64,000 nucleotides of DNA, taken from Flavobacterium aestivum. GTDB taxonomy: Bacteria; Bacteroidota; Bacteroidia; Flavobacteriales; Flavobacteriaceae. Positions 1-10,970 of the stretch are shown here, in pieces. How positions within the stretch are numbered: the first letter of the stretch is position 1; each line of letters starts with the position of its first letter. The stretch covers positions 4,154,001-4,218,000 of the forward strand of contig NZ_CP113977.2 in NCBI RefSeq assembly GCF_026870175.2. The letters are read 5' to 3'. The position numbers and the translations under genes are program-made. The notes beneath the pieces were generated by a model that saw only the letters and a list, made by a program, of their open reading frames with translations, made no database searches and was not told where the DNA came from.

Positions 1-2916
1 ACTCCGGAAAGTCCTTTGATGTTTACATCTCAAAGCGAGCAAAATCGCTTAAACACAATTACAACAGAGGACAAAACCTATATCAGAATGCTTTTTGATT
101 ATTATTCGGTTCAAGAGTTATTGAATTATACTATTCCAAAGGATATGAGTCTTACGGATGCCTTAGCTCCGCATACTATATATCCTGATAGTGAAGAGAT
201 ATTTGCGGATTATTTTAAACTCTATTTTAGAGATAGTCTTCCTCAAATAGAATATGCAAAAATTATTAGTATAGAAAGTGATCCAACCAATAGCGTCATA
301 TCAACTGTTAAAATCAAAGGATATACCGTTATGAGCACCGGTGAAGTAATCAGTCTGACGATAAATGATGTGAATAAAGATCGATTCATTGGAGGAATTT
401 TAACTATTGGAGATCAAAACTTTGTTGTTACCAAAGTTTATTTTGAAGGAGATGTTGAAAAAGTCGATGTAATGAACAAAGAAGTAGCTTCCAGTATTGT
501 ATCTGAAGGAAATGCGACTATCGATTCTGAACAGATAAAAGCGATTAAAATTCCTGAAAACGGATTATGCACTTTGGTTGAGAACATGTTAACGCCTTCA
601 AATTGGCATCAACCAGGACCTATTAATTTTCAAGTTCAATATCCGGCTAATTTAAAATCTGTTCATAGAGAAATCATTCAGCCAAAAGACAGTCAGGGCA
701 ATGGTGATTTACAAATAGAAAAAACAAGAGGAATTTGGGAAACAGCAAATATCGAAAGAGTTGAAGAAACAGTGTATGAAACAGATGCAAATGGAGATGA
801 GGTACCATTGCCTGGAACCAAACACTTGGGGCTATATAAACTAACTTTTACTGATTTTAAATTACCTCAACACACTCAATATAAAGGAGAAAACATCGAA
901 AACTCGGTAGAATGGTTTAATGGTATCGTTCGATTGTTTACTAAAAGCTCTGTAGAGTCAGGAAGTACAATACCTGTAAAATCAAGAAAAGAGTTCAAAG
1001 TAGTACGAACAGAGAATATAGGGACTACTAATGATTTAGTGTTGTATATCAATGATACGAATTTTAAATTAGGACAAAACGGTAGCACATCGATGGATCC
1101 AAATTATGATGAAATTATAGTTGGGAATCAAAAAGTGAATTATTATCCAAGCTATAAAGTATATCTTTTTGCCAATCCTGCGTATGGTTTAACGAAAGCA
1201 AATATACTTCCAAGAACGGGAGAAAGCACACACTATTCGATATTTGGAATTAGTGGTCATTCTAATAAATTTGACTACGATTCAAAAATTAGTACGCCAA
1301 GCCCGATGTATGCTGTTAGAATCGAAGAGCCAGTTAGACCGGAACAACCAGAAGGAGCTTTGTATGCCACTCGACCTGATTTCTTTAAACGTTCTACTTA
1401 TACATTTACAACCAAATACAATCATAAACCATATGGTGTATTGCATTACAGAGCCAGTGATGAAGCAATATTAAGTACTTTATACGAAAGAGGAACCATT
1501 ACTACGATCCGTGAAAAACTAAAACTACTTGGTGGAAATAATGAAACCTATTTCACCAATAGATGGGAAAACTTTTTAGATTTCAATACACTAGAAACAC
1601 AAGCAAATTATACAGAATTTCCAACAGAAGGTGATCCTTTACTCAAATTTCGTTTGCCCGTACCAGACAATGTACAATTAATCAAATCAATTAATGATTT
1701 TATCGATTGGCATAATCAAACACAAAATAAAACGGTAGCAAAAATTAGTTCATTATCGGCACTCAATCAGGTTATAATTTCTACAGCAGATGGAATTGAA
1801 CAGAATTTATTAGCGATTCACTTTATAGAACAAGCCATTCACTCAGCATTTGTACCACTAACGGAAGTACCAGTTATCTATGATTTTATTAATGATGATC
1901 CAACATATGTTCCTATTGCTAAGAAACAAACCATCAAAGATAAAAATGGACATATTTTAAAACCAACCGATCCTGATTTTGATATGGCTCCAATGATGAA
2001 AATTGTGGATATCGCAGAAAACAAAGTACAGTTTACTGATTTCAGTTTAGACGGAACCTCGAATAACTTTTATTTCTATGGAGTACGTGAAATGGATATT
2101 AAAATGAATTTTGGAGAGTTTAGCCCTTTCAAAGGCCCTATAAAATTAGTATCGTCAAATCCGCCTCAAGCACCAGAAATTAAGCGAATCATGCCAGTCT
2201 TAGAGAATCCGGTTTTAGGTATTAAACCAGCTATTCAAATAGAGTTGAATCCTTATCATCCAGAGCATAAGATCAAGAAAATAAGTATATATCGTGCTAC
2301 TTCAATGCTTAATGCGCAATCGATAAGAACAATGACTCTTGCCAAAGAAGTTGTAATTAGTGAAGACACATTGTCTCCTGATTTCGAAAATATCTGGTCA
2401 GTCTATGATGAGTTTGAAGATTTAGAAAGCATTCCTTTTGGAGATGGCCTCTTTTACAGGCTTACTGTTTCACGAGAAATTGAATATGCAGATCCAAGTT
2501 CGTCAGAACTGAATCCTATTATCAATATTGATTATACACCGTCACAACCATCAAAAATCACTGCTACAGTTATTGCCGATGCGGTTTCGCCTCAATCACC
2601 TGTATTACATGCAACAGGAACTCCTACAGGAGCAAATGAGTCTGTGTTAAAACCAGTAGTTTTCAATTGGGAGAAAACAGTTCACAATGGAAAATACCAT
2701 CTCTATAAGATGAACAATCAAGGAAATTGGGATAAAATCCATGAGACTGTCTCCAACGGAAATGCTATCGTTCAGCCTTTACTAGAAACTAAATTAGGAA
2801 GTGATGAATTGATTATTAAGACTGTTGATGCCGAAAGAATCTACCATCATTTCAAAGTAATCTCTGTGAACTCTTCAGGTATGTACAGCAGTGAAGAAAA
2901 AATTATAACCCTATAA
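1..2916 (+). CDS. Large phage-tail-like structural protein, 5' end cut by window
   Basis: The reading frame is open from base 1, and the first visible start-like codon (TTG at 16) sits in the middle of open frame, so the gene begins left of the window. The 966 or more visible residues are soluble, beta-rich and free of membrane segments. The last 250 residues look like tandem fibronectin-III-like domains: repeated P-x-AP beta-strands, with xxIYRA and YHLYKM strand motifs near residues 760 and 900. I recognise no catalytic motif. Two tail-fibre-type genes follow, so a tail, baseplate or injection-particle component is the best inference from context. It could also be a large secreted adhesin. 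A hairpin follows the stop. Confidence 0.6.
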   Translation, partial: TPESPLMFTSQSEQNRLNTITTEDKTYIRMLFDYYSVQELLNYTIPKDMSLTDALAPHTIYPDSEEIFADYFKLYFRDSLPQIEYAKIISIESDPTNSVISTVKIKGYTVMSTGEVISLTINDVNKDRFIGGILTIGDQNFVVTKVYFEGDVEKVDVMNKEVASSIVSEGNATIDSEQIKAIKIPENGLCTLVENMLTPSNWHQPGPINFQVQYPANLKSVHREIIQPKDSQGNGDLQIEKTRGIWETANIERVEETVYETDANGDEVPLPGTKHLGLYKLTFTDFKLPQHTQYKGENIENSVEWFNGIVRLFTKSSVESGSTIPVKSRKEFKVVRTENIGTTNDLVLYINDTNFKLGQNGSTSMDPNYDEIIVGNQKVNYYPSYKVYLFANPAYGLTKANILPRTGESTHYSIFGISGHSNKFDYDSKISTPSPMYAVRIEEPVRPEQPEGALYATRPDFFKRSTYTFTTKYNHKPYGVLHYRASDEAILSTLYERGTITTIREKLKLLGGNNETYFTNRWENFLDFNTLETQANYTEFPTEGDPLLKFRLPVPDNVQLIKSINDFIDWHNQTQNKTVAKISSLSALNQVIISTADGIEQNLLAIHFIEQAIHSAFVPLTEVPVIYDFINDDPTYVPIAKKQTIKDKNGHILKPTDPDFDMAPMMKIVDIAENKVQFTDFSLDGTSNNFYFYGVREMDIKMNFGEFSPFKGPIKLVSSNPPQAPEIKRIMPVLENPVLGIKPAIQIELNPYHPEHKIKKISIYRATSMLNAQSIRTMTLAKEVVISEDTLSPDFENIWSVYDEFEDLESIPFGDGLFYRLTVSREIEYADPSSSELNPIINIDYTPSQPSKITATVIADAVSPQSPVLHATGTPTGANESVLKPVVFNWEKTVHNGKYHLYKMNNQGNWDKIHETVSNGNAIVQPLLETKLGSDELIIKTVDAERIYHHFKVISVNSSGMYSSEEKIITL

Positions 2917-2924
2917 ATCTAAAA

Positions 2925-2954
2925 AAATGCCAATGACTAAACTCATTGGCATTT
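2925..2954 (+). terminator. Hairpin after the large structural gene
   Basis: The arms TGCCAATGA and TCATTGGCA flank a 6-base loop just after the stop codon. A preceding A-run and a short TTTAAAA tail suggest a weak or bidirectional terminator. The string GCCAATGACTAA recurs in the terminator that ends the fibre cluster near 11.1 kb. Confidence 0.55.
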
Positions 2955-3006
2955 AAAACTGGTTCATCAAATAAATAATTATAGCACGAAAATAAATTAA
3001 AACAAC

Positions 3007-6000
3007 ATGGCAACAAGCAGAATCAACATTAGTAACAAATTTGAAAATGGTGATATTCCTTCACAAAACGATTTCGGGGAAATTTTTGATAGTTTCGTTC
3101 ATAAAGACGAAGATAAAGCCAATTTTCAAATGGTCGAAGCCGGAATCGATAACCAGCATTATGTAACACCAGCGCTTTTGAATACAGGTTTACGAAATAT
3201 AGGAATCATTACTGGTAATTGTTATATGCCATTCAAAGAGCATATTGACAATTTTAGCGGCACTACTCTATCGTTAGAAAAATTGCCTATCCAATATAGT
3301 GTTAAGGTGTATAAGAATGGGCAACTATTACTTGAAGGAGAAGATTATACCATAAATTACGATACAGCAGTAATTACTTTTTCTTCAAATGTAAGCAATA
3401 GAAATATCGAAGTAGATTATTGGTATAAAAATTTGAGTCCCAATCCTGGAAACGGATCAGGTACTGCTATTGATCTCACCAATTTTCTACATACAACAGG
3501 AAATGAAACTAAAAGTGGTATCTTAACTTTTAACAACACTACTCCTACTTCAACAAACGGTATTGTATTAACAAATAGTGGTGCTACAGCTACAGCACTT
3601 GATGTTACTAATAGTAGTGCAGGAAATGGAATTGCTATGTCAAATTCATCAACAGGAACTGCTGTTAAATTATCAAATACCGGAGATGGGGTTGCGATAA
3701 ATTTAAACTCAGCAACTGCATCAACAGGTGATCTATTACAAGTAGCAAAAAATAATGTTGTTAAAACAAAAATTGACAGCGAAGGAAATGTAACAGCACC
3801 AAAGTTTACTACTACTGGTGGCACAAATACACAGTTTATTAAAGGAGATGGTACACTTGACCCTACAGTTTACGCAAATAATAATTTTGTAATTCATACT
3901 ACAGGAAACGAATCAAAAGACGGAGCATTAAACTTAACTCACGATACTTCGCAACAAGATGTTCTTACCATTACCAAAAACAATAGTGCCAACTGTTTAA
4001 AACTAGTACAAAATTCTAGTTCTAACGCTACTACCTCTACTTTTGATACCACTACAGCCAATGTTAACAGAAAAGCGATCAGTGTTCAAAAAATACAGCA
4101 AGAAAACGCATTTATCACGCACGATGGGAATGTCACTGGAACCTCATTTACAACATTAAATGAAAAAGCCGATATTACTGACGGATTTTTAACTTTAGCT
4201 GGTTCTGCTTCTCCAGCTGCATCACAAGGTCACGCAAAATTATACGCCAAAACTGACGGTACTACCGACATGTATGTAATGGGAAGTGATGGTGTGGAAA
4301 AGAAAATTGGTGGCGTTGTTGATTTATCAGGTAAAGAAAATACTATTGCTCCAGGATCAACTGCTCAATATTACAGAGGTGATAAAACTTGGCAGACACT
4401 TGATAAAACAGCTGTTGGTCTTGCTAATATTGATAATACTAGCGATTTAAATAAGCCTGTTTCTATGGCTACGCAGGTGGCTCTAAATAATGTACTACAT
4501 AAAACTGGATTCAGTACAGAAACTAAAACGGGAGAATTAGTTATTGATAGTGGTACTACTGGGATTAGTGGTTTAAAATTAACTCGAATAACTCAACCAA
4601 GAAGTACTTATGCTACTATTCCTTCTTCAAATTATGGCTTAATTAATATAGGAAATGTGTTTTACACAACTAATGCAACATTAGTAAAAATTGAAAATAC
4701 AGTTTCTAGCTCTATAGGCCCTAATAGAGGGAGTACATACTCATTATGCTATAATAACAATGATAACAAAATATACATAGGAGGAAATTTGAGTAGAATT
4801 CATTCTGTAAATCCAGATGGAACTGGTAGTGTAATCGTCGCTACATTTACGGCAAACGATCAATATTTTTATGGGATAACCGTAGCTAGTGACAATAATA
4901 TATATGTTTTAGATTACACTAGTGGAAATATTCATAGAAGTACACCAGCAGGAGTAAAAACAGAAAACTTTGCAAATGTAGGAGCATATTATAATACTGG
5001 ATTGATAAGCGGAAATAATGGATTTATCTATGCAGCACATGACAACTCTATAAAAAAAATAAATATAGCCAATGGTGTAGTAACTAATTTAGTTACTACA
5101 ACTAAAAGTATTTACTCACTGTTTTTGCATTCTGACGGATATATCTATATGAATAATTTAGATTCTGTTGCTAAGGTTTTATTAGATGGAACCAACTTAA
5201 CAGAAAATTGGGTATCTGGACTTTCGTCTCCAAATAGAGCAGAATATGGAATATGCAGCCAAGGAGGAGAATTATATATTAAAGATAATAATACAATATC
5301 AAAATTAATTCAATCACAAAAAACCCTTAAAACAGATTCCTCAGGATTAGTTGTAAGCTCAACATATTTAGAAGATGTTCCATATTTAAAAGCTTCTGAT
5401 GTTGATTTATCGACTTATGCCAAATTAGCATCTCCTACATTTACAGGAGTACCAACCGCGCCAACAGCTACTGCAGGAACTAATACTGATCAAATTGCTA
5501 CAACAGCTTTTGTTATAGCGAATACATCTTCTAGTATACCACATTTAGAATCTAATAATACAAATAAAACTGTTTGGAATAATGGACAAGGAAATATTGC
5601 TACCAACACATCCTTTGGAGAAAATGCATTAAAATCTAATACAACTGGTTATGGTAATACAGCACTGGGAAATGATAGTTTACCCGATAATACTTCTGGA
5701 TCAGCCAATACAGCTATAGGCGCATCATCACTTAGATTAAATATTTCAGGAAACGAAAATACCGCAGTTGGTTTTTATTCTCTTTTAAACTGTAAAGGCA
5801 GCAAAAATACCGCGATAGGAAAAAATGCAGGTTCATATCTATCAACGGGAGACAATAACATTTTTATAGGTAGAGAAACTGGTTCAGGAATAACTACAGG
5901 GTCCGGAAATGTAATAATAGGATATACTGCAACATCTCCAGCAACACTTACAAACAATATAATTATTGCCAATGGAGCTGGAACTATAGCGGCTCAACAT

Positions 6001-6171
6001 GATGGTACAAACTGGACATTTCGTGGGCAAATTAACAAAACTGGATTCGATGTGGCACCACTAACTTCTACAAGTGCAGGTAATCCAGGCGAAATTAGAA
6101 TAACTGATGATTACATATATGTCTGTAAGCAAACAAATCTTTGGGTAAGAACTGCATTAACATCCTGGTAA
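3007..6171 (+). CDS. Tail-fibre protein with internal beta-propeller
   Basis: This 1054-residue protein has a modular fibre layout. An N-terminal segment (about 1-145) ends in a small beta-domain. The unit HTTGNExKxGxL occurs near residues 160 and 296, with a variant near 498. Residues about 540-765 resemble an NHL/SMP-30-like propeller with recurring blades such as NNIYVLD, NGFIYAAHD and DGYIYMNN. At about 810-840 lies the phage-fibre motif PTFTGVPTAP...TTAFV. Residues about 880-975 are NTAxG repeats typical of trimeric beta-roll fibre shafts. The C-terminus resembles a fibre tip. Host or surface recognition by a phage or injection particle is the likely role. The propeller is the unusual part. 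There is no signal peptide, as expected for a particle protein. Confidence 0.8.
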   Translation: MATSRINISNKFENGDIPSQNDFGEIFDSFVHKDEDKANFQMVEAGIDNQHYVTPALLNTGLRNIGIITGNCYMPFKEHIDNFSGTTLSLEKLPIQYSVKVYKNGQLLLEGEDYTINYDTAVITFSSNVSNRNIEVDYWYKNLSPNPGNGSGTAIDLTNFLHTTGNETKSGILTFNNTTPTSTNGIVLTNSGATATALDVTNSSAGNGIAMSNSSTGTAVKLSNTGDGVAINLNSATASTGDLLQVAKNNVVKTKIDSEGNVTAPKFTTTGGTNTQFIKGDGTLDPTVYANNNFVIHTTGNESKDGALNLTHDTSQQDVLTITKNNSANCLKLVQNSSSNATTSTFDTTTANVNRKAISVQKIQQENAFITHDGNVTGTSFTTLNEKADITDGFLTLAGSASPAASQGHAKLYAKTDGTTDMYVMGSDGVEKKIGGVVDLSGKENTIAPGSTAQYYRGDKTWQTLDKTAVGLANIDNTSDLNKPVSMATQVALNNVLHKTGFSTETKTGELVIDSGTTGISGLKLTRITQPRSTYATIPSSNYGLINIGNVFYTTNATLVKIENTVSSSIGPNRGSTYSLCYNNNDNKIYIGGNLSRIHSVNPDGTGSVIVATFTANDQYFYGITVASDNNIYVLDYTSGNIHRSTPAGVKTENFANVGAYYNTGLISGNNGFIYAAHDNSIKKINIANGVVTNLVTTTKSIYSLFLHSDGYIYMNNLDSVAKVLLDGTNLTENWVSGLSSPNRAEYGICSQGGELYIKDNNTISKLIQSQKTLKTDSSGLVVSSTYLEDVPYLKASDVDLSTYAKLASPTFTGVPTAPTATAGTNTDQIATTAFVIANTSSSIPHLESNNTNKTVWNNGQGNIATNTSFGENALKSNTTGYGNTALGNDSLPDNTSGSANTAIGASSLRLNISGNENTAVGFYSLLNCKGSKNTAIGKNAGSYLSTGDNNIFIGRETGSGITTGSGNVIIGYTATSPATLTNNIIIANGAGTIAAQHDGTNWTFRGQINKTGFDVAPLTSTSAGNPGEIRITDDYIYVCKQTNLWVRTALTSW

Positions 6172-6299
6172 TTAAACCATAAGCTATCTACTCAATTTTA
6201 AAAAGATTAAACAATAATTTTTAAAAGGTATATAACAAAAAATTAAATAACCTAAAAAAATTATTCCAAAAACTCGAAAATACATTAAAATAATAAAAA

Positions 6300-6572
6300 A
6301 TGGAAAACACAACAATCAATAAAGAAGAATCAAAAACAATCAATCCAGAACAATTAAAGAAGTTACAGGATTTTAATGCATTCATGGACAAAGCCAGATT
6401 GTCATTAGGAGAATTATCGATTCAATATGAATTTCAAAAAGCTGATATTTTGAGTCAGATTGCCGTTCAGCAACAAAACTTCAATGAACTGGAAAAAGCA
6501 ATCAAAGAGGAATACGGAGACATTCGAGTGAATATTGAAACAGGTGAAATTGTAAAACAAAAAAAGCAATAA
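6300..6572 (+). CDS. Small coiled-coil protein of the fibre cluster
   Basis: This is a 90-residue, charged, almost entirely helical protein. Heptad-like hydrophobic spacing through residues 18-75 predicts a coiled coil, and there is no signal peptide or membrane segment. It lies 128 bases after the fibre gene on the same strand. A chaperone or assembly factor for the fibre is possible, but no family is recognised and the function is unknown. Confidence 0.6.
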   Translation: MENTTINKEESKTINPEQLKKLQDFNAFMDKARLSLGELSIQYEFQKADILSQIAVQQQNFNELEKAIKEEYGDIRVNIETGEIVKQKKQ

Positions 6573-6576
6573 ACTC

Positions 6577-6846
6577 TTGAAAACAATTTTAGAACAGTTA
6601 ATAGGAACCACAGATTTATCAACCTATTTGACATAGTTCCTTTTAGCCTTTATTGGGACTTTTACAGCGATTATAATTCGGGCAAAGTCTAAGTACAAAT
6701 ACAGTGACGATACTCCTTATCGTTCATTCTGATTTTTCTTTCTTCAGGATAACCTGATTTATAGCTCACAACTTTAGTTGGAGCAACTAGTGATGAATTA
6801 GCATTGCTCTTTGCAAAATTTAGCATTAACAGCTATAAAATAATTT
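6577..6846 (+). pseudogene. Degraded small membrane-protein gene
   Basis: Starting at TTG 6577 the sequence reads KTILEQLIGTTDLSTYLT, then TAG, then in the same frame FLLAFIGTFTAIIIRAKSKY and a short polar tail, then TGA, then FFFLQDNLIYSSQL and TAG. A second frame continues from about 6768 with TTLVGATSDELALLFAKFSI until a stop near 6846. The pieces have coding-like composition and together look like a protein of about 85-90 residues with a hydrophobic helix, broken by two in-frame stops and one frameshift. A holin-like or other small phage-type membrane protein is possible. The identity is unknown; the broken state is read directly from the sequence. Confidence 0.5.
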
Positions 6847-6891
6847 AATAATTAAGACTAGGACAAGTCATAATCACTTATTAAACAAAAT

Positions 6892-7689
6892 ATGGAATAT
6901 TACAATAAAGCCAAGTCATTGACTGCAACAAAAAATGATTGTGCTGCTGGAGTCATTGGTACTTCCGTCACTCTTACCGCTAATGCAAACCAGTTTGTAT
7001 CGACCATAAGTCTCGAAGATGCCAATGCAAAAGCAGATGCATGGTTGATTGCAAATGTACAGGCATATGCAAATAATGCAGGAACATGTAGGATTACTGC
7101 ATGGAGAGGAATAAATCCTTCTTGTGTGGTAGAACCTACAACAACACTATCTCCTTTTAACTATATGGTCATTAGATACAAATGGGCATTAGGAGCTGGA
7201 CAAGATTTTGACACTTATACCGGAATCGTAAACTCGGGAACTTCTCTGGATAATAAATGGATGGGCTGGGGACATAATTTTGGGAATGAACTCCCTAATG
7301 ACACCATCGCAGCAGACTCGTATATCATGTGGGCTGGAGATAATACACAAGCAAATGGTATAGAAAGTTGTTTGGTAAATTTTAGTAAAATAACTGCGGA
7401 CTACCCTACTCTTAACACAATTCAGGTAAGAATGGCTGGTTCATGGTATACTTCTGTCGGTACAGGAAATATAGATATTGAAGTAACTACCTATTTGGGC
7501 GGAACAATGGTTAAGACAGGATATGATATGATTAATGTTGGCGGAACTATGATTGACCAAAAGAATTTTTCTAAAAAAGTACCAATACAAGGTAAAGCTT
7601 TGGCCCAAAATATAGAATCTGTTACTAATCTTGGGTACATAACGTATTCCAAAAACTCCTCTACAGGGCAAATTGTAATAACTTATTAA
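6892..7689 (+). CDS. DUF5977-domain protein with unknown beta-rich C-terminus
   Basis: This is a 265-residue protein without a signal peptide. Residues about 1-66 fit the Bacteroidota DUF5977 module, with its Cys, the DANAKADAW helix and the closing YANNAGTC. Residues about 85-265 form a beta-rich domain with aromatic strands such as FNYMVIRYKW, which I do not recognise. A closely similar DUF5977 module is in the next gene, 10 bases downstream, so the pair probably arose by module duplication and is co-transcribed. DUF5977 modules are common in large Bacteroidota surface proteins; here the location points to a particle-associated or cargo protein. The function is unknown. Confidence 0.75.
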   Translation: MEYYNKAKSLTATKNDCAAGVIGTSVTLTANANQFVSTISLEDANAKADAWLIANVQAYANNAGTCRITAWRGINPSCVVEPTTTLSPFNYMVIRYKWALGAGQDFDTYTGIVNSGTSLDNKWMGWGHNFGNELPNDTIAADSYIMWAGDNTQANGIESCLVNFSKITADYPTLNTIQVRMAGSWYTSVGTGNIDIEVTTYLGGTMVKTGYDMINVGGTMIDQKNFSKKVPIQGKALAQNIESVTNLGYITYSKNSSTGQIVITY

Positions 7690-7699
7690 AAAATAAAGT

Positions 7700-8575
7700 A
7701 TGGGGAATACAGGATATAAATCTTTTGCGTCACTTGAGTTATACTTCACAGATGACAATAGTTCAGCAGGAGTAACAAAACCAAATGTAGTCACAGATCC
7801 GGATTACATTGCACCGGTTTTAGATACTGCAACTTGTGCTCCAAGTACAAGATATTATAGTGTAGAAAGAAATTTAAGTGCGGTAAAAAACAACTGCGGA
7901 AATGGATATAGCGGAAGTAAAGTAGTACTTACCTCCTATCCAAATCAATTTTTTTCTACTACTAGTGTAGCAGATGCTAATGCACAAGCAGATGCATGGC
8001 TAGCTGCAAATGTACAAACTTATGCAAATAATGCAGGAGTATGTGAAATTACCCAGACCCCGCCACATGGTGGTGGAGGTGGTAATGGCTGCTTTGTTGA
8101 AGGTACATTAATTACATTACCTGATGGTTCAAGCAAAGCAATCGAAGAATTACAGCTTGATCAACTGCTGCTTTCTTCTGAAATTGAAACATTAATTGAT
8201 ACCAATAATGCCAATGAATTGTACAAATGGTCCTCTGACTATTTATCAGAAAGTAGAATTACATCACCAATAACCAAAATATCGCAGAAAGTCGCCTATA
8301 AAACAATGATTATTAATCAAGGATTGTTAGAGGCTACTCCAACTCACCTACAACTGATTCAACGTGATGGTTTTTGGAGATTTATTCCTTTAGGAGATAT
8401 TCTGGTTGGAGACAATTTATATACTATCAACAATGAGATTATACTGGTTACATCAGTTACGATTAACTTAGAAGAAAGAAAGATCTATCCGCTGACATTA
8501 AATCCATTTCATACCTATTTTGCAAATGGAATTTTAACTCATAATTATAAGGAAGCACAAAGTCCAAATCCATAA
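7700..8575 (+). CDS. DUF5977 protein with C-terminal Hint autoprocessing domain
   Basis: This 291-residue protein starts at ATG, 10 bases after the previous gene. Residues about 50-115 are a DUF5977 module. A glycine-rich linker (about 123-130) leads to a Hint (hedgehog/intein) domain at 131-282. The domain has Cys131 opening block A (CFVEGTLI), the block B motif T213-P-T-H216, and a block G ending in His281-Asn282. Residue 283 is Tyr, not Cys, Ser or Thr, and only nine residues follow. Classic splicing is therefore unlikely; cleavage at Cys131 or after Asn282, as in bacterial intein-like domains, is the expected chemistry. By inference the DUF5977 part is released or attached elsewhere. The location among tail-fibre genes is notable. 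Confidence 0.85.
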   Translation: MGNTGYKSFASLELYFTDDNSSAGVTKPNVVTDPDYIAPVLDTATCAPSTRYYSVERNLSAVKNNCGNGYSGSKVVLTSYPNQFFSTTSVADANAQADAWLAANVQTYANNAGVCEITQTPPHGGGGGNGCFVEGTLITLPDGSSKAIEELQLDQLLLSSEIETLIDTNNANELYKWSSDYLSESRITSPITKISQKVAYKTMIINQGLLEATPTHLQLIQRDGFWRFIPLGDILVGDNLYTINNEIILVTSVTINLEERKIYPLTLNPFHTYFANGILTHNYKEAQSPNP

Positions 8576-8807
8576 ATTCTAATCTGATTTTAGCCACTAA
8601 AACAATTAATCTATTCAAAATCTTCAGGATTTCTCCCAAATTCAGTATTAGATTTTTTTAAACCAAAAACAATAATTAGCACCTCCTCCATTACAATTGA
8701 GTCTTTTTTTTCTCTTAACTATTTAATACAAAATTTGGGTTGACTAAACTAAAGTTTTGAATCAATTAGGTCAAAAATCAAATAATTAATCATTAAAAAA
8801 TATAAAA

Positions 8808-10970
8808 ATGAGTATCGATCATAACAGAATAAAAGTAGCTGATTTAGAAACAAATCAACCGAACAAAATCTTAACCACTAACACTATTGGAGAATTAGAG
8901 TTTAGTGATATTAACAACATCAAAACCGATAGTTATAATGCTCTTGACTATACCATTGCTGGCAAAGCATTAGATGCCAGACAAGGTAAAATCTTGCAGG
9001 ACACAAAAGAAAATAGCTCCAACAAGACACAGGACATTGAATCAAACAAGACCTCCAACATTTTCTTTGGCAGTGTCAAAGCTATTTACGATTGGTCTAT
9101 GGGAAAGTTCAAAAAAAAATTACTTGACATCAAAGACATTACTAACTTAATGGAGGTTATAAATGGAGAACAAGTGTATGTTCCTTTACCTACTGATGAA
9201 AAATTATTTTACAGCGGAGCTGCTGATATAAAAATTTTATTAAAAAACGACAATCAGGAATTGGTACCCATACCGGTAGGAACTAGATTTGAAATAACGG
9301 GTGATAGAAATGGGGGAAATATAAGTCCTACTGGAGAGGCAGAATTATATGGAGCTGTTCGTCCATTAGAAAAAAGCAGTACAGCAATTTTTATAAAAAT
9401 TGCTCCAAATACTTGGCACATTGAGTTTATAAATACCGATATGTTGGTATATAACTACTCTGGTATATCATGGGAACTTGATTACTGGCAGAATGGAAAT
9501 CGAATCGTTACAACAAACGACAATCCAATTACGTTGAATTTGAGAACTAATTCCGTCAAAAAACTACCTATTGGATGCAAAATAGAGTACACACAAAAAG
9601 GAAACGGTATAATCACATTAGTGCCTTTTTCTGGTGTAACACTTTTGACTAATTCGTCATTATCATCAGTAAAAGGGGAAACAAAGACATTAACAAAGAT
9701 AGCAGAGGATACTTGGACTTTAGAAGGTAATTTGCCAATTGCGGGAACACGTGTGCCAAGAACCTATTATATAAATGGAATAACAGGTAATAATGCAAAA
9801 GGTGTTTATGAAGATTCTACTCGACCGTATTTGACCGTCGACTATGTGTTGACCTCTGCTAATTTCAAAGATGGTGATATTATATTCTTAGAAACACCAA
9901 CCACATTTGCAATAACAGCGATAATTCCGTTTATGAATTGTACGTTTAAATCAGATGTTGCTTGTACACTTACTCTAGCAGGTAATAACAATACAAAGTT
10001 AGTTAAAGATGCAACTAGCGGGCATCTTATGTTTGACATTCCAAACGGAACACTAGATCTTAGAAGTTCAGTAGCTAAAACAGTAGGCGAATGGTTTAGT
10101 GCACTTACAATAAATGCATATAACTTGAAATCTGATGCGACTTTCAATTGTAATATATTTTATGCAGTAAATCTGAAAATCTTAGGTGTTTTTACTCATA
10201 ATGGAGGCACACTTTTTGGGCAAACAAATCTTAATGGAACCAATAATATTTTTATAAATGGAATATCATCTTCCGCCACTTCAACTCTATTTGCTTCTGG
10301 AACACATGGCTTTTCAAATATAGAATTTAATAATATATCATGTTCCAACTCATCGACGTATTATACAGTAGCTCAATATCTAGGAAATGGGTGTAGGATA
10401 TTACACGGAAATATATCATGTACTTATCCATCTTCATACACAATTGTAGCAACGGCAAGTTCTACGGCTAATCAAGAAATTATATTTAAGAATCAAGCTA
10501 CCGTAACAGGTAAAGGGGGATATTGGGCATATGGAGGTATAACAAATATTACTGGATATTGTACGTTTACCAATAATGATACCATGTTCTTTTCGACTGC
10601 AGGTGCCAGAACTGAAAAGATACAATTCTACAATGCTACTATTTTCTCGAAAGGACCAATCTGGAAAGATGCAGGAAGAGGAACTATACTAACTAGTTTT
10701 AATATCACGTTTATAAACTGCACAATTTACGTTGACAATGCACTGATATATGGAAAGAATGAAATTCTTAACAACAATCAAGAAATGATAAGTAACCCCG
10801 CTATTCGTTTTATAGGAACGAATGTAGTTTATTGTACTGTTAGTACTGCCAATTATATATCTTTTAATAATGGTAACGGTACGTACTCTGGCATTGTAAT
10901 GGAAAAAATAGGCTCACTTACAACTAATGGATTAATTAACAACACAATAACAGTAAATAATTTATTATAA
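8808..10970 (+). CDS. Second tail-fibre-like protein, beta-helix type
   Basis: This is a 720-residue protein. Near residues 45-60 it carries AGKALDARQGKIL, a motif typical of phage tail-fibre and tail-collar proteins, followed by a helical stretch to about 110. Residues about 120-320 are beta-rich. From about 325 to the end the sequence has the repetitive short-strand, N/G/T-rich pattern of a right-handed parallel beta-helix, as in tail spikes and pectate-lyase-like proteins. No catalytic residues for glycan cleavage are obvious. It is the last gene of the cluster and ends before a strong terminator. Surface binding, possibly with depolymerase activity, is the inferred role. Confidence 0.75.
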   Translation: MSIDHNRIKVADLETNQPNKILTTNTIGELEFSDINNIKTDSYNALDYTIAGKALDARQGKILQDTKENSSNKTQDIESNKTSNIFFGSVKAIYDWSMGKFKKKLLDIKDITNLMEVINGEQVYVPLPTDEKLFYSGAADIKILLKNDNQELVPIPVGTRFEITGDRNGGNISPTGEAELYGAVRPLEKSSTAIFIKIAPNTWHIEFINTDMLVYNYSGISWELDYWQNGNRIVTTNDNPITLNLRTNSVKKLPIGCKIEYTQKGNGIITLVPFSGVTLLTNSSLSSVKGETKTLTKIAEDTWTLEGNLPIAGTRVPRTYYINGITGNNAKGVYEDSTRPYLTVDYVLTSANFKDGDIIFLETPTTFAITAIIPFMNCTFKSDVACTLTLAGNNNTKLVKDATSGHLMFDIPNGTLDLRSSVAKTVGEWFSALTINAYNLKSDATFNCNIFYAVNLKILGVFTHNGGTLFGQTNLNGTNNIFINGISSSATSTLFASGTHGFSNIEFNNISCSNSSTYYTVAQYLGNGCRILHGNISCTYPSSYTIVATASSTANQEIIFKNQATVTGKGGYWAYGGITNITGYCTFTNNDTMFFSTAGARTEKIQFYNATIFSKGPIWKDAGRGTILTSFNITFINCTIYVDNALIYGKNEILNNNQEMISNPAIRFIGTNVVYCTVSTANYISFNNGNGTYSGIVMEKIGSLTTNGLINNTITVNNLL

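Follow-up and report, generated by a model that had tools for sequence, protein, structure and literature searches.

We identified a complete Hint domain of the BIL type at the end of a short fibre- or stalk-type protein of Flavobacterium aestivum, and we consider it reasonably probable (about 0.6) that this domain cleaves itself from the stalk in front of it or transfers that stalk. The window analysed is a stretch of 64,000 nucleotides (nt) of assembly GCF_026870175.2 (NZ_CP113977.2:4,154,001-4,218,000, forward strand; genome label G000). Its first part, positions 1-10970, belongs together with 22.5 kb upstream to a Flavobacterium island of 33.5 kb (G000:C1 ~4131440-4164970). Here, a single-frame open reading frame (ORF) with an ATG start (7700..8575, plus strand; 125 homologues) encodes a protein of 291 amino acids (aa). 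On the same strand follow one another a conserved N-terminal segment (residues 1-45, 7700..7834), a DUF5977 module (residues 52-115, 7853..8044; Pfam PF19404, E 6.3e-17, 62.4 bits where the cut-off is 25), a Gly-rich linker (residues 124-130, 8069..8089), the Hint domain (residues 131-282, 8090..8545) and a nine-residue C-terminal tail (8546..8572) that begins with Tyr283 at position +1 and a conserved Lys284 at +2. The catalytic residues are Cys131 (8090-8092), T213 (8336-8338) and H216 (8345-8347) of the block B motif T213-P-T-H216, and H281-N282 (8540-8545). DUF5977, a Gly linker and a complete Hint in one short protein between fibre genes is what the initial annotation had described, and the residues, the ORF and the neighbours are as claimed. 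In the accessible text of PMC8286594, DUF5977 is listed as a stalk domain of fibrillar adhesins.

A profile search of the domain gave a divided answer: PT-HINT matches at E 1.1e-4, but its 22.8 bits lie under the Pfam cut-off of 27.7, and Intein_splicing also stays below its own (16.1 against 35.8 bits). The NCBIfam scan was of no help in identifying the domain. The Hint match is nonetheless not a chance one. The AlphaFold2 model of the protein has a mean predicted local distance difference test score (pLDDT) of 89.4, falling below 50 at residues 120-128, and its residues ~127-285 match BIL, intein and Hedgehog Hint structures. The best match among solved structures is BIL2 of Tetrahymena BUBL1 (6y75, 6tmm; 25% identity over 141 residues), and the best fold matches in BFVD include phage proteins named 'Hint domain containing' and 'Fibronectin type III'. 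The Hint fold, Cys at position 1, a TxxH in block B and a terminal His-Asn together place the domain in the Hint superfamily. An intein insertion is rejected since there is no C-extein starting with Cys, Ser or Thr, only a nine-residue tail from Tyr. A Hedgehog-type (Hog) domain is rejected as well, the nine residues after the Hint holding no sterol-recognition region. The flanks of a BUBL-type BIL are also missing: Pfam shows DUF5977 as the only other domain, and no ubiquitin-like ones.

The protein search returned 125 relatives, 120 of them listed, and the organism is Flavobacterium wherever the source names one. Conservation was scored on 111 distinct domains from the 120 listed proteins and loci L007-L029 (archaeal locus L028 included), after exact duplicates and domains with fewer than 130 of 152 model columns had been dropped. 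Cys1 and His-Asn are invariant (111/111 each), and the block B His corresponding to H216 is kept in 110, with one gap. Position +1 is occupied by Y (46), I (41), V (9), F (5), K (4) or others (6), and never by C, S or T; Lys stands at +2 in 108/111, and all 111 have Lys or Arg at +1 or +2. The tail has at most 13 residues in 109 of these domains; beyond +2, neither its length nor its sequence is constant. The median ratio of nonsynonymous to synonymous substitution rates (dN/dS) is 0.099 both for the Hint and for residues 1-45 (55 pairs of 11 orthologues) and 0.115 for DUF5977 (51 pairs), values that are rough because dS reaches 0.8-1.1. These ratios point to purifying selection, and the Hint gene does not look like a decaying element. 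The His-Asn end with a non-nucleophilic +1 residue (Tyr283; C, S or T in 0/111), on a variable bacterial host protein that is of fibre type and has a C-terminus swapped between islands, corresponds to a type A BIL. In sum, the BIL-type Hint is real and conserved, and it occupies a position that is unusual and widely shared.

The gene order around the Hint gene, for which the initial annotation had proposed a survey of other Flavobacterium genomes, is the same in the 20 loci examined (L023 seen in part). Swapping of the C-terminus became apparent in 199 Flavobacterium genomes, a survey that overlaps the named set of 20 genomes. In 22 of them the 1889-aa protein encoded upstream of the fibre genes is matched at E<=1e-20, and in 15 of the 22 over its full length with at least 60% identity (own genome counted, one match in two pieces). 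All 15 islands carry the DUF5977 gene that here directly precedes the Hint gene, and all have a gene sharing the N-terminal module found in the 291-aa protein; this second gene ends in a Hint in 10 islands and in a non-Hint domain (fn3-like, propeller-like and others, named by eye) in five. The Hint therefore sits where other strains carry apparent binding domains. Residues 1-45, common to proteins with other C-termini in five of the 15 islands, are a probable docking part. The same survey found distant Hints (23-35% identity) in seven other genomes. One of these, at locus L160 (G111), is a Hint protein of another kind, 277 aa long and 35% identical; by eye, a fibre-like ORF precedes it and small ORFs of membrane and lysozyme-like type follow, and the locus looks like a prophage.

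Fibre-type proteins ending in a Hint are also found on many viral contigs. Among 62 distinct viral-contig domains, Cys1 is Cys in 52 (10 are unaligned there, some with Ser, as in L039, L041 and L054), and 58 have His-Asn, 47 of them with Lys or Arg at +1/+2 and 30 with a tail of at most 13 residues. Of the 48 distinct Hint carriers on viral contigs, the 40 that are neither truncated nor very long were scanned against PHROGs: seven matched the virion structural family phrog_38766, nine a family of unknown function and one tape measure, and single tail-fibre families were matched by up to four. Helicase PHROGs were matched by 5/40 carriers and polymerase PHROGs by 2/40, perhaps via inteins in those families. 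Tail-fibre families recur among 35 hand-picked proteins of the 161 neighbours of viral Hint genes (single families in up to five). A phage collection of 50,697 records yielded Hint matches in seven (E 2e-3 to 6e-3). Phage NCTB encodes, among its tail-fibre genes, a 'putative phage tail protein, contains intein domain', an 'intein domain protein' and a 'large intein domain protein', and gp112 of Erwinia Alexandravirus, annotated as a virion structural protein, ends in a Hint, with a tail-fibre gene two genes away. The view that a Hint next to fibre genes is not an established arrangement is therefore not supported. The titles and abstract openings among the open-access matches listed include none on a tail-fibre Hint, a Hint beside SET or this island; what they show of papers combining 'Hint domain', 'tail fiber' and 'phage' concerns inteins in terminase, ribonucleotide-reductase and helicase genes.

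Some Hint carriers have other layouts. Four proteins of ~910 aa (L080, L084, L094, L107) have three tandem Hints joined by His-Asn-[K/R]-x-Cys and end in His-Asn-Lys-stop; their N-terminus is ATP-grasp-like, by eye alone. P0059 has two Hint domains in tandem with a five-residue spacer. Seven viral proteins of ~2100 aa or more (L069, L073, L083, L089, L092, L103, L104) show the opposite layout, with the Hint near the N-terminus and Ser and a Gly-rich linker after it.

A second recurrent element, present in 10 of the 101 Hint loci, is a SET-domain gene of 110-124 aa right behind the Hint gene, the distance between the end of the one and the start of the other being -23 to +10 nt. Six loci are from Flavobacterium (L010:18588-18926, L011:14803-15141, L015:19100-19438, L023:11651-11998, L025/L026:11157-11498) and four from viral contigs (L030:10465-10806, L031:10452-10826, L032:10474-10806, L033:4123-4461). 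All 10 match the SET-domain profile at E<1e-45, and four of the five tested against Pfam SET are above its cut-off (the fifth, L031, has 20.5 against 22.4 bits). A weak eleventh match (L080, E 3e-4) lies 159 nt downstream of a Hint gene. The profile was built from SET genes beside Hint genes, so a close SET is partly defined by that neighbourhood. With it, a viral scan found 23 loci: the six above 140 bits all adjoin a Hint (four on contigs already known), while none of the 17 at 30-50 bits has a Hint in the available flank, four of these contigs beginning less than 500 nt away. Among the 199 genomes, three have a SET gene and all three adjoin a Hint (one, G096, is by its coordinates the genome of L026). 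No SET gene was found in the own genome by the genome scans, so SET is not needed for the basic function of the Hint. The SET fold is known for lysine methyltransferases. Together with the conserved Lys of the tail, a SET neighbour suggests lysine chemistry, which would act on fibres. More distant viral SET proteins (L129-L145) lie in some cases right after structural or tail-like genes, by eye.

How could the domain work? By the chemistry of its family, Cys131, with the assistance of H216, would convert the peptide bond behind Gly130 into a thioester, N282 could cyclise with the help of H281, and either water or an amine would resolve the thioester. The Hint would thereby be separated from residues 1-130 (N-terminal segment, DUF5977 and Gly tail), leaving these free or amine-joined, and this processing might help the fibre part of a lysis-freed complex to mature or assemble. 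Given that Tyr rather than Cys, Ser or Thr follows N282, classical splicing is unlikely, and with only a short tail after the Hint the useful product would be the stalk, freed or passed on. The release of a cargo, suggested by the initial annotation, can hence be upheld only if the payload is the N-terminal stalk. The domain itself, its fold, the intact and invariant catalytic residues, purifying selection, the C-terminal position and the conserved fibre-gene neighbourhood are what the data show directly. By judgement rather than computation, processing at the N-terminal junction seems quite probable; if it takes place, we would expect release somewhat short of even odds, conjugation less often and re-ligation to the tail in a minority of cases.

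The literature on the +1 residue cuts both ways. Cleavage had been predicted from Tyr at +1, and, in the excerpt of PMC4031507, a Magnetospirillum BIL with Tyr+1 indeed spliced only after a Tyr->Cys change; the same excerpt holds that a nucleophile is dispensable for splicing by type A BILs, in which an amine can attack the thioester. Several points weigh against processing as we propose it. In contradiction to PMC4031507, the available part of PMC7765530 describes type A BILs as unable to ligate their flanks. The block B His is kept in just 36 of the 62 viral-contig domains, and eight of the 58 with His-Asn have Ser at +1. Moreover, the same N-terminal module has a non-Hint end in five of 15 islands, so the Hint may be a retained tip; being replaced there, it is not essential to the stalk, and once it leaves, the stalk has no tip.

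The initial annotation had also considered that the DUF5977 part might be tethered to another protein, and this idea gains weight from the BIL2 structural match and the conserved Lys. A Lys or N-terminal amine of a particle protein would attack the Gly130 thioester and join the stalk to it covalently. BIL2 of the Tetrahymena BUBL1 ubiquitin-like locus is reported to form Lys isopeptides (accessible text of PMC8616854) and is the best solved-structure match, a flexible Gly-rich linker precedes Cys1, Lys is found at +2 in 108/111 domains, and a SET gene follows the Hint in some relatives. Yet no partner was identified and there is no ubiquitin-like domain, a likeness of fold does not show a reaction, and SET is confined to 10 of 101 Hint loci and absent from the own genome; we hold such conjugation to be possible but doubtful. 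A different use of the thioester is the alternative splicing proposed for type A BILs (PMC4031507, in the excerpt available): Asn282 cyclises, the amino group of the tail attacks and the stalk acquires the Lys-bearing tail as its end. The conservation of both Asn282 and the tail Lys would fit, whereas Tyr+1 blocked splicing in the Magnetospirillum BIL (same excerpt) and the tail varies beyond +2, making this outcome unlikely. Both are special outcomes of processing by the Hint, and the figures that we attach to the readings thus do not sum to 1. A broader idea would make the fibre Hint an ATP-independent protein-conjugating device, which passes the stalk from its thioester to a partner Lys and is steered, in some relatives, by lysine modification through the neighbouring SET protein; in Flavobacterium it would help to build, covalently, a sheathless toxin particle of a new class that lysis sets free. 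We regard it as a long shot.

Two further explanations do without transfer of the stalk. The Hint could stay attached as a structural or binding tip with vestigial catalysis, for it occupies the slot of other C-terminal domains in five of 15 islands; invariance of Cys1 and His-Asn in 111/111 domains, and of H216 in 110, speaks against vestigial catalysis and leaves this explanation improbable. Alternatively, it could be the pretoxin Hint of a polymorphic toxin, which releases a C-terminal toxin: PT-HINT is the best Pfam Hint match, and the island holds a polymorphic-toxin-like gene. We reject it as scarcely credible, since the match (22.8 against 27.7 bits) is below the cut-off, no toxin or other domain but nine residues follow the Hint, and the toxin-like gene is separate, ~20 kb upstream.

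The five genes placed by coordinates around the Hint gene are on the plus strand. The C-terminal part of the 1889-aa protein (1..2916; whole gene G000:C1:4151247-4156916; N-terminal VWA below cut-off) opens the window and is followed by a 1054-aa fibre-type protein (3007..6171; PHROG virion-structural E 1.1e-22, tail-spike E 8.8e-22) and a 90-aa protein of unknown function (6300..6572; an ORF with a blastp homologue in 11 of 20 relatives' loci). The 265-aa DUF5977 protein (6892..7689; PF19404 E 4.4e-22, phrog_24956 of unknown function E 1.3e-30) ends 10 nt before the Hint gene. After the latter comes a 720-aa fibre-type protein (8808..10970; Phage_fiber_rpt below cut-off, a weak minor-tail PHROG match at E 0.03), and related islands have its N-terminal ~65 residues again in several of their fibre genes. 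By eye, an ABC-F-like gene limits the fibre genes of the window.

Upstream of the window, the island encodes a repressor, matched at E 3.9e-17 by a PHROG family of transcriptional repressors, and a member of phrog_846. Small proteins called holin-like and spanin-like from their size and appearance, none with a Pfam match above cut-off, come next, together with a CHAP lysin (E 1.5e-12). Then follow proteins of 722, 983 and 208 aa, a leucine-rich-repeat-like ORF on the other strand (by eye) and a 2493-aa protein, the second giant beside that of 1889 aa. At L007:13597-16040, the repressor and early genes lie inverted on the far side, which suggests rearrangement of the island. The 722-aa protein is matched in 19 of 20 genomes examined, weakly in six; its model is poor (pLDDT 57.6) and has no fold match at E<=0.001. 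A phage origin of the giant proteins is not supported: neither is matched in the phage collection, and their best PHROG match (E 0.008) is to a family of unknown function. They have no Pfam or NCBIfam match above cut-off, and a scan detecting close relatives only found none of the 1889-aa protein on viral contigs. The polymorphic toxin TANFOR (TIGR02542) was rejected too, with no NCBIfam match in the 2493-, 1889-, 722- and 983-aa proteins.

Between the 722- and 2493-aa genes lies a long ORF that differs by species. L112 and L115 share 69.5% identity over residues 1-696 and have no match beyond, and several other pairs among the 15 proteins compared match in the N-terminal part alone; near whole-length matches join the own protein with L111 and L116, and L114 with L115 and L119, whereas L121-L123 match none. 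Among nine proteins scanned, L120 ends in an EndoU nuclease, which scores 49 bits where 25.3 are required, and EndoU stays below cut-off in L114 and L119. Small ORFs follow the toxin-like gene, as arrays in some species (L110, L113, L116, L119). We call them candidate immunity genes on the grounds of position and size, because none of nine tested matched an immunity family in Pfam. A variable C-terminus, EndoU and trailing small ORFs are arranged as in a polymorphic toxin followed by immunity genes.

Is the island a contractile particle, as the initial annotation supposed? The proteins scanned against Pfam, NCBIfam and PHROGs (all but the ORFs of 94, 81 and 307 aa) include no recognised sheath, tube, baseplate, capsid or terminase. 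The one sheath-family match of the own genome (G000:C1:962387-962644) is 3.2 Mb from the island along the contig, or ~1.4 Mb should the contig be a circle, and may belong to a separate contractile system. No sheath match at E<=1e-3 occurs in seven of the 20 genomes with the cassette; of the 14 matches listed, 12 are on contigs other than that of the island, one (G010) shares its contig at a distance of ~103 kb and one is the own match at 962 kb, with some doubt left by the contig ends of draft genomes. A contractile tail, extracellular contractile injection system or tailocin is therefore not supported in cis, with the limit that very diverged genes or a particle encoded elsewhere would escape these scans. 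By its parts, a repressor, lysis-type genes, a toxin and fibres, the island would be inducible, lysis-released and toxin- and fibre-bearing, and its gene content resembles a lysis-released toxin complex more than a contractile tail, if it forms a particle at all. Of the initial annotation, then, the observation of a DUF5977-Hint protein by fibre genes stands as a whole, save for the words contractile particle; of its interpretation, a complete, conserved Hint expected to self-process stands, and the contractile particle, a cargo other than the stalk and the unestablished arrangement are not supported.

Hint chemistry and Hints on phage structural proteins are already known. New are a C-terminal position that is open to swapping and combined with Lys or Arg at +1/+2, the association with SET and the toxin island. 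If the domain is active, intein chemistry serves to mature fibre parts or to join them, both in phage-type fibres and in a bacterial toxin island; a 291-aa protein and one Cys change make this directly testable. The pair of Hint and SET, common to viral contigs and bacteria, points to an unstudied lysine chemistry on fibres. The island, finally, is possibly an undescribed lysis-released toxin-delivery complex that combines a regulator, lysis-type genes, a variable toxin, candidate immunity genes, giant proteins and fibres.

Among known systems, the Tc complex of Yersinia entomophaga, released with a lysis cassette (PMC10101115, accessible part), likewise pairs a large toxin complex with lysis-type genes; no relation was found, the giant proteins being without a Pfam or NCBIfam match above cut-off. 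The pretoxin HINT shares the Hint domain and the polymorphic toxin of the island, but there the Hint directly precedes the toxin; in the excerpt of PMC3482391, HINT occurs with type II, V and VII secretion systems and TcdB/TcaC toxins, never with type VI secretion or PVC. The Hedgehog C-terminal domain (1at0) differs in its sterol-recognition region, for which there is no room after the Hint here. BIL2 of BUBL1 is eukaryotic and flanked by ubiquitin-like domains, and isopeptide formation is reported for it, as far as the text available goes. BN7874_132 and BN7874_136 of phage NCTB and Alexandravirus gp112 are alike in having a C-terminal Hint that only a short tail follows, and in being encoded between tail-fibre genes or close to them; they differ in belonging to phages, with ~25% identity at E 2e-3 to 6e-3. 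Type A BILs are flanked by further sequence at either end. Our domain shares with them the Hint fold, Cys1, TxxH, a C-terminal His-Asn and a non-nucleophilic +1 residue, but it ends its protein, has Lys or Arg at +1/+2 and is carried by fibre-type proteins of an island and of viral contigs.
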